A stretch of DNA of 47,778 bases from positions 1 to 47,778 of the forward strand of contig JAILZL010000023.1 in NCBI GenBank assembly GCA_023512475.1. The letters run 5' to 3'. The notes under the pieces were generated by a model. That model did no database searches and was not told the DNA's origin. It was given only the letters and a program-made list of their open reading frames with translations. Positions 44,605 through 47,778 of this stretch are shown here, piece by piece; positions within the stretch are counted from its first letter, which is position 1; every line of letters begins with the position of its first letter. A program made the translations under genes and the position numbers. This DNA comes from Syntrophobacterales bacterium (lineage in GTDB: Bacteria > Desulfobacterota > Desulfobaccia > Desulfobaccales > 0-14-0-80-60-11).

Positions 44605-44617
<13 letters not shown>
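44565..44617 (+). promoter_or_regulatory. Operator-like elements before the NifA-like gene
   Basis: In an A/T-rich leader lie GTTAAAC (44565-44571) and TGACAAATTTGT (44606-44617). Both also occur, with one or two changes, in the promoter of the XRE/cupin regulator (47719-47746). The second element covers the upstream ATG candidate at 44605, which favours the later start at 44641. Confidence 0.45.
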
Positions 44618-46185
<1,568 letters not shown>

Positions 46186-46268: not shown

Positions 46269-47570
46269 TTATTGGGTGAGGATCCACAGCAGGCGGGCCA
46301 CTTCGGGGCCGGGATTGTGCCACTGCTCCGGGAGATCGGTGGTGAGATAGAGGAGGTCCCCCGGCTTCAGGGTCAAGACCCGCCGGCCGCAGCTCACCTT
46401 CAGGGTCCCGGAGAGGAGATAGCCCATCTCCTCCCCTTTGTGAAAGAGGAAATGTCCGGGGATGGTCGTCCCAGGATTGATCTCCAGGAGGTAAGGCTCG
46501 ATTTTGGCGCTGAAATCCACCGGATGGAGCAGTTTGGCCGAGCCGGCGCTCTCCGGGAGGAGGGGCAGCCGGGTCTCCACCGCCTCCCCGGGCGTGAACA
46601 CCTGGCTGCCCCGGCCTTCGGACCGCTCCTGGAAGAAGGAGGCCGGCTCCACCTCCAGGACCTCGGCCATGCTCATCAGGGCCGGGAGCGAAGGGTAGAT
46701 GAGATTGCTTTCCACCTGGGAGATGGTGCTGGGGGTGACCCCCACCAGCTTGGCCAGCTCGCTCTGGGACAGCCCCCGCCGGCGGCGGAATTCCTTCAGA
46801 CGGCGGCCCAGATGCAGTTTGCCGCTCACCCGCCGCTCCTCCTCAAAGACCACCGTCAGGCCCTTGGTCCAATAGGCGTGCGGCTGGTGAAACGCCTCCG
46901 TGCTGCGGTTTTCCGCCTTGAGGATGGTGAGGGCGGTGGCCCCCCGCTTGATGGTCAGCTCGATGGCCACCTGGGCGATCTGGTTCACCGCCGCCCGGAA
47001 GCGGGGGGAGTGGGCGTTCTTCTCCAGGAGCCAGTAGGCGATGGTGTTCAGCTCGTACAGCCGGGGACAGGCGTGGGAGTAGAAACTGAGGAGGCGGTCC
47101 TCGCTGCCCCAGAGCTCCTGCATGCCGGTGAGGGATTCAAAGACAAAGCGCACATCCCCGGTCAACCCGGCGTGCACGCCGTAGAGCTGCTCCGCGAAGG
47201 AGTCCGGATTCCGGGGGTCGGCCACCGGCAGGAGACGGCAGCCGGGGTCCGGCTGCCGCTCCTCATAGAACTTGAGAAAGATGGGCGAGCTCCGGCCCTT
47301 GCCATGGGTGAAGCAGTCCAGGAGGGTGAGGCCGGGGTAGTGGGCCAGAGTCCCCAGTTTGTCCAGCAGGTTTTTGGGGGAGCGATCAAAACTGACGTAG
47401 ATGATGGCCTTGCCCTGGCGCTGGGAGGCCTGCAGGAAGTTGAGACAGAAGACCGGAGCCAGGGAGCCGGCGTCATCATGCCACAGGACATTATCCCCGA
47501 TGAACAGGCCGCCCAGGAGGAGATCCAACCGGGGGATGCCCGAGGCCACCGCCTGCCGTGCCGTCTCCAT
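46269..47570 (-). CDS. Pseudo-KaiC/XRE/cupin three-domain regulator
   Basis: This 433-residue protein has three parts. Residues about 8-245 follow the KaiC/RAD55 pattern (ASGIPRLDLLLGGLFIGDNV, KAIIYVSFDRSPKNLLDKLG). Where a P-loop GxxGxGKT is expected it reads HDDAGSLAPVF, so ATP binding is doubtful. Residues about 253-312 are an XRE HTH (GRRLKEFRRRRGLSQSELAK, GVTPSTISQVESN). Residues about 345-433 are a cupin (PGHFLFHKGEEMGYLLSGTL, LKPGDLLYL, WHNPG), a small-molecule sensor in XRE-cupin regulators. The start at 47570 follows GGAGG; an ATG 24 codons upstream is less likely. It is probably a ligand-responsive transcription factor, likely autoregulated. Confidence 0.85.
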   Translation of the reverse strand: METARQAVASGIPRLDLLLGGLFIGDNVLWHDDAGSLAPVFCLNFLQASQRQGKAIIYVSFDRSPKNLLDKLGTLAHYPGLTLLDCFTHGKGRSSPIFLKFYEERQPDPGCRLLPVADPRNPDSFAEQLYGVHAGLTGDVRFVFESLTGMQELWGSEDRLLSFYSHACPRLYELNTIAYWLLEKNAHSPRFRAAVNQIAQVAIELTIKRGATALTILKAENRSTEAFHQPHAYWTKGLTVVFEEERRVSGKLHLGRRLKEFRRRRGLSQSELAKLVGVTPSTISQVESNLIYPSLPALMSMAEVLEVEPASFFQERSEGRGSQVFTPGEAVETRLPLLPESAGSAKLLHPVDFSAKIEPYLLEINPGTTIPGHFLFHKGEEMGYLLSGTLKVSCGRRVLTLKPGDLLYLTTDLPEQWHNPGPEVARLLWILTQ

Positions 47571-47718
47571 GTCCGCCTCCTTCCGGCGGGGTGCGGCGCC
47601 CGGCCGCAGGGTGGACCCTCGCCGCCCCTCTCCCCTGTTCATAGCAAAAACGGCGCCAGATCGGGCCGGGCACGCCCGGCCCCGGCAGGGACTTTTTTTA
47701 CATGTTTGTCTTAAATTT

Positions 47719-47746
47719 CAGTTTAACTGACAACTTTGTCATTATA
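47719..47746 (-). promoter_or_regulatory. Promoter and operator of the pseudo-KaiC/XRE gene
   Basis: On the minus strand a perfect TATAAT (47741-47746) is overlapped on its downstream side by the near-palindrome TGACAAAGTTGTCA (47728-47741). The palindrome CAGTTAAACTG (47719-47729) follows directly. No consensus -35 is visible. The palindromes cover the expected transcription start, the usual place for a repressor site. Confidence 0.55.
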
Positions 47747-47778
47747 TCCGTCCACCGTGGCGCCGGATATATCATAAC

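Follow-up and report, generated by a model that had tools for sequence, protein, structure and literature searches.

The window, a 47,778-nucleotide contig from a Syntrophobacterales bacterium, carries an uninterrupted open reading frame on the minus strand at 46269-47570. The frame encodes a 433-residue protein that begins METARQ and is built from three domains. A KaiC-like domain (residues 1-245; 46836-47570, minus strand) is followed by an XRE helix-turn-helix (HTH) (residues 253-310; 46641-46814, minus strand), which matches Pfam HTH_31/HTH_3 with E about 4e-14 to 5e-14, and by a Cupin_2 domain (residues 361-430; 46281-46490, minus strand; Pfam E 4e-13). A sequence-only reading had placed these three parts in one frame, and each part was borne out by Pfam, fold comparison and alignment. 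Only 208 bases lie between the start codon and the contig end, and because of this the upstream neighbour of the gene is missing from the window. The intergenic part that lies inside the window (47571-47778) contains a short palindrome, TCAGTTTAACTGA, and its contig end carries 12 bases, GTTATGATATAT, that recur at the end of another contig of the same genome, C32.

A KaiC-like domain without a P-loop

The first 240 or so residues had been read from the sequence as following the KaiC/RAD55 pattern. In the window protein, the Pfam KaiC profile PF06745 scores 20.3 bits (cut-off 26.6) and covers residues 8-71 only, and other members of the regulator family match it with a best E of 1.5e-8. When the N-terminal profile of the regulator was aligned by hhalign to 15 KaiC domains of the same phylum that have a P-loop, the probability was 97.6 % (E 3.7e-12) over 217 columns. 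The full protein was modelled with AlphaFold (mean pLDDT 75.5, pTM 0.53), and the model was compared with known structures. VIA-align matched it to KaiC 7s65_B at Z 18.7 (205 residues, 2.6 A) and to PH0284, a RecA-family protein of Pyrococcus (2dr3), at Z 18.4 over 219 residues. Foldseek with the whole model returned XRE-cupin proteins first (1y9q, HppE) and KaiC folds after them. Modelling the N-terminal domain alone was no improvement over the full model (pLDDT 74.8, pTM 0.78); the top matches were unchanged, but with Z of 12.0 and about 11, in an overall range of 10-12, they scored below the 18.7 of the full model. By profile and predicted structure, residues 1-245 are a KaiC fold. An unrelated fold, which would have spoken against the sequence-only reading, was not what structure prediction returned.

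The same reading had noticed that neither GKT nor GKS stands at the Walker A position. In the hhalign alignment with true KaiC domains, Walker A (GxxxxGKT) pairs gap-free with D32-D-A-G-S-L-A38-P39 of the regulator, where the first Gly is D32, the Lys is A38 and the Thr is P39. Where the strand after Walker A ends, these domains have a catalytic Glu pair (FEES); the regulator has FDRS there, and position 62, in this pair, is Asp or Asn in 95/95 sequences. GxxxxGK[ST] was found within the first 80 residues of none of 95 non-identical homologues. Since none of the 95 carries a P-loop, its absence is not a local error, and a frameshift or sequencing error was ruled out as the cause.

In place of the P-loop, the 95 sequences share a conserved GDNVVWxxDxG, whose variants read GDNVVW..[DE].G. 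W30, D85, F87, G90, T148, G149, W154, W180 and H187 are invariant or nearly so, with exceptions in one or two sequences, and of the three domains, conservation is lowest in the cupin. When the window gene was compared with those of two sister genomes, dN/dS came to about 0.1 over the KaiC-like domain and to 0 over the HTH. Residues 20-45, around the former P-loop, gave about 0.02, which means strong purifying selection. The former Walker A region itself (residues 25-45, GDNVLWHDDAGSLAPVFCLNF; 47436-47498, minus strand) is marked by the hhalign alignment, by conservation and by the dN/dS of residues 20-45. Loss of the P-loop under strong constraint is established by these computations; judged from the sequences, the catalytic motifs are gone yet the domain is strongly preserved. 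Such conservation fits a role as sensor or oligomerisation module, which the sequence-only reading had proposed.

Nucleotide might still be bound without the P-loop lysine, in which case the protein would sense energy charge or a nucleotide second messenger. The KaiC fold and the acidic residue of Walker B (position 145, Glu or Asp in 94/95 sequences) are in keeping with this, but the Lys, the first loop Gly and the catalytic Glu pair have been lost across the family, and we regard retained nucleotide binding as unlikely.

Relatives and distribution of the regulator

The MEDS domain (PF14417) is named after DcmR, a repressor. MEDS is likewise KaiC-related (hhalign E 2e-7, MEDS versus KaiC), but it has no significant profile similarity to the regulator domain, is shorter and conserves other residues. 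As an identity for the regulator domain, MEDS was rejected (hhalign probability 0.8 % over 30 columns against 15 MEDS domains), and PF14417 was absent among the hmmscan matches listed for 24 family members. In PMC5847659, the MEDS domain (PF14417; DcmR sensory domain) is listed as a type of iKaiC, a term used there, citing Makarova, Galperin and Koonin 2017, for inactivated KaiC-like ATPase domains in archaeal signalling proteins. The iKaiC proteins described in that paper are archaeal and have receiver, HalOD1 or PAS domains as fusion partners. Like them, the regulator domain is a KaiC fold that has lost its ATPase motifs and is a module of a signalling protein. It also agrees with the general description of iKaiC as a KaiC-superfamily domain with lost motifs, here fused to HTH and cupin and kept in homologues. 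Unlike those archaeal iKaiC proteins, the regulator is bacterial, is fused to XRE and cupin domains, is linked to glutamate synthase and has its own GDNVVWxxDxG motif.

Active KaiC/RAD55-like ATPases of the RecA superfamily (PF06745; PDB 2dr3, 2w0m, KaiC) share the core fold and a full-length profile match with the regulator. In contrast to them, the regulator lacks Walker A and the catalytic Glu pair, mostly has Glu for the Walker B Asp, stays below the Pfam cut-off, and carries its KaiC-like domain fused to DNA-binding and cupin domains. The C-terminal half resembles XRE-cupin repressors of the PuuR type, as positions 6-177 of the 185 in the PuuR profile NF007408 match regulator residues 252-428, with 69.8 bits against an equivalog cut-off of 211. 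The HTH and cupin half, and likely the mode of DNA binding, are common to both. The regulator differs from PuuR in its additional N-terminal stretch of about 245 residues, its glutamate synthase neighbour and its own predicted operator. No match was found in the literature searched for a combination of KaiC, cupin and HTH. iKaiC domains and XRE-cupin regulators are known; new here are a dead domain under constraint and the target gene and operator that are predicted for the regulator.

A profile search was conducted over 395 genomes of the same phylum, Desulfobacterota. The three-domain order, which the sequence-only reading had not known from elsewhere, is present in 69 of these, a count that includes G139, with two fragments only, and G354, whose gene is cut by a contig end. 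Eleven further genomes have a shorter form of KaiC-like domain and XRE without the cupin. The existence of cupin-less members suggests that the KaiC-like domain and the HTH are perhaps sufficient. A scan of genome contigs with a single query sequence, which reaches close relatives only, gave 22 relatives from metagenome-assembled or isolate genomes of Deltaproteobacteria, Syntrophobacterales, Desulfobacterales and other groups, or unclassified. No plasmid record matched with 80 % query coverage, and all of the plasmid matches listed were to the HTH-cupin half.

The two-domain proteins (L057-L066) have 350-362 residues, and their Walker A position is occupied by PGTYF or a similar sequence. A glutamate synthase gene, gltB525, is present in 8/11 genomes with this form, and GOGAT-like genes lie near several of its loci.

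Linkage to a glutamate synthase gene

The gene gltB525 recurs near regulator loci and encodes a 525-residue protein with a match to the glutamate synthase FMN domain (PF01645, 67.8 bits); its identity is taken from this one Pfam match and from context, and an NCBIfam scan gave no match. It is no more than about 8 kb away from the three-domain regulator in 42/69 genomes. Among 40 pairs selected for sharing a contig (38 with the three-domain and 2 with the two-domain form), 30 are separated by less than 1 kb, and these comprise 11 convergent pairs, 10 that run in the same direction and 9 divergent ones. The pair is retained while its orientation changes, which indicates a functional link. Across the genomes searched, gltB525 is present in 67/69 with the regulator and in 119/315 with neither regulator form; the co-occurrence has a Fisher p of 2e-21 for regulator genomes against all other genomes, a statistic that ignores kinship. 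The genomic linkage is in this way established computationally.

On contig C32 of the window's genome, 114 bases separate the start of gltB525 from the contig end. Since the ends of C32 and the window share GTTATGATATAT, the regulator and gltB525 are very probably divergent and about 310 bases apart. Two sister genomes have the divergent pair with gaps of 351 and 470 bases. On C32, gltB525 is followed by glnA, putative split GOGAT parts and, beyond them, an isocitrate dehydrogenase-like gene, names that were taken from the sequences of the window's genome and from scans of relatives. By Pfam, glnA and split GOGAT genes are also among the neighbours in related loci.

On the other side, a sigma54-dependent activator-like gene, which reads as GAF, AAA and HTH, lies at 44605-46185 on the plus strand, convergent with the regulator. 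L001 has a similar gene next to the regulator, and 11 loci include this blast cluster. The gene in the window could be an activator of a sigma54-like gltB525 promoter.

A candidate operator and the proposed role

A palindrome, TYAGT-N3-ACTRA, was noticed in the divergent regions between regulator and gltB525. It was found by eye in a set that includes the window's own genome, and its core, AGT-N3-ACT, was tested outside that set. Upstream of linked gltB525 genes, 25 core sites were found in 20/40 independent regions, compared to 1.8 expected from first-order Markov shuffles, which gave at most 6 sites in 200 shuffles; the 40 regions share ancestry, so that their effective number is below 40. 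Where the regulator is present and gltB525 is unlinked, there were 7 sites in 5/20 regions (1.1 expected). Genomes without the regulator had 3 sites in 2/40 gltB525 upstream regions (1.9 expected), and one of these two site-bearing genomes, G120, carries a fragment of the cupin part of the regulator. Computation thus establishes a palindrome that tracks the regulator, and we infer that it is the operator of the regulator. The exact core is absent from half of the linked regions and from 15/20 unlinked ones, which means that the site must vary or that there are other targets.

The 13-base pattern occurs once in the window, at 47718-47730 (0.02 expected), where it would be the distal site of the divergent region, a prediction also based on the enrichment upstream of gltB525 elsewhere. 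In the window's whole genome, TYAGTNNNACTRA has three matches: by gltB525, by the regulator and inside a UvrD-like helicase gene (C68:38891), the last of which was taken as chance. In a search of 10 whole genomes, the strict 15-base pattern matched once in each of six. The sole genome match to TTYAGTNNNACTRAA is in front of gltB525 in G015, G295 and G161. In G214, G257 and G392, the single strict match lies away from gltB525, and the G214 and G257 matches are in similar sequence. A control pattern, read backward, had 8 matches in the same 10 genomes.

The link to gltB525 could be merely positional, with the true targets elsewhere, for example among the amino-acid or polyamine genes that other XRE-cupin regulators target. 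On available sequence, gltB525 is not within about 8 kb in 27/69 genomes, and only 5/20 unlinked gltB525 genes have the palindrome, both of which would agree with this. However, the linkage holds in all orientations over many families, the two genes co-occur, and the palindrome upstream of gltB525 follows the presence of the regulator (20/40 linked versus 2/40 without it). A purely positional link is, in our judgement, quite unlikely.

The position of the site in front of gltB525 ranges from -44 to -300. In the window's genus, as seen at the C32 end of the window's genome (L182) and in L130, the proximal site directly follows a sigma54-like promoter element, TGGTGCA-N4-TTGCAT. In several other genomes, the site is 44-91 bases from the gltB525 start codon; in others, it is 150-300 bases upstream. 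A site after a sigma54-like element, or 44-91 bases from the start codon, suits a repressor. Paired sites in front of gltB525 commonly have a spacing of about 50-56 bases, roughly five turns of the helix, as would suit a cooperative protein.

KaiC folds are established to assemble into rings in KaiC itself. The KaiC-like domain could accordingly be an oligomerisation scaffold only, forming a ring or dimer and binding no ligand, with the cupin alone as sensor and the spaced operators bridged cooperatively. Ring assembly and the site spacing speak for such a scaffold, but the pocket residues D26, N27, W30, G35, D85, F87 and G90 are invariant or nearly so, beyond what a plain scaffold needs, and the cupin is the least conserved domain and is missing from the two-domain form. 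We hold a scaffold-only role to be rather unlikely.

The regulator family appears to control glutamate synthase genes, which build ammonium into amino acids. We think it likely that it is an inactivated-KaiC (iKaiC), one-component regulator of ammonium assimilation and glutamate synthase in Desulfobacterota, acting as follows. The XRE domain would bind TTYAGT-N3-ACTRAA upstream of gltB525 and, for a divergent pair, also in the region shared with the regulator's own gene, mainly for repression. The KaiC-like domain, having lost the motifs for ATP hydrolysis, would most likely be a ligand-sensing and/or oligomerising module. Together with the cupin, it would form the input that sets DNA binding by the nitrogen/carbon state. 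A nitrogen/carbon-status metabolite is the likely signal because the neighbouring genes make glutamate from ammonium and 2-oxoglutarate; the ligand would be a metabolite that reports nitrogen status, with 2-oxoglutarate, glutamine and glutamate as examples. More tentatively, and as a possibility that falls short of being probable, the former KaiC ATP pocket in Desulfobacterota may have been remade as a sensor of one of these nitrogen/carbon metabolites (2-oxoglutarate, glutamine or glutamate) and exert direct control over glutamate synthase by way of the XRE-cupin body, as a nitrogen regulator distinct from PII/NtrC, GlnR, TnrA, NrpR and ANTAR systems.

Most descriptions of inactivated KaiC domains come from archaeal signalling, and the role given to the domains there is a proposal. 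With its many homologues, its predicted target gene and its predicted DNA site, the present bacterial family opens the signal of a dead KaiC domain to direct test. For sulfate-reducing and syntrophic lineages, it also puts forward a transcription factor of ammonium assimilation.

The gltB525 upstream regions hold further elements. The sigma54-like element of L182 and L130 is 67-70 bases upstream of gltB525. In L143, L147, L151 and L157, a second palindrome, of the type GGCAATAGTTGCC, immediately precedes the predicted operator at about 70 bases upstream of gltB525, and the same regions have a similar GGCAATATTGCC further upstream. Tandem small hairpins stand 60-220 bases upstream of gltB525 in L136, L160, L153, L179 and other loci. 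An Rfam scan of these leader hairpins found no known RNA. Examples such as GCAC-AAxGGC-GTGC and GAC-AAAGGC-GTC have hexaloops with A1 and G4, as do the targets of ANTAR antiterminators. ANTAR substrates have been reported at glutamate synthase genes of Desulfotomaculum reducens (PMC3369931). In L136 and L160, the second leader hairpin overlaps a terminator-like hairpin.
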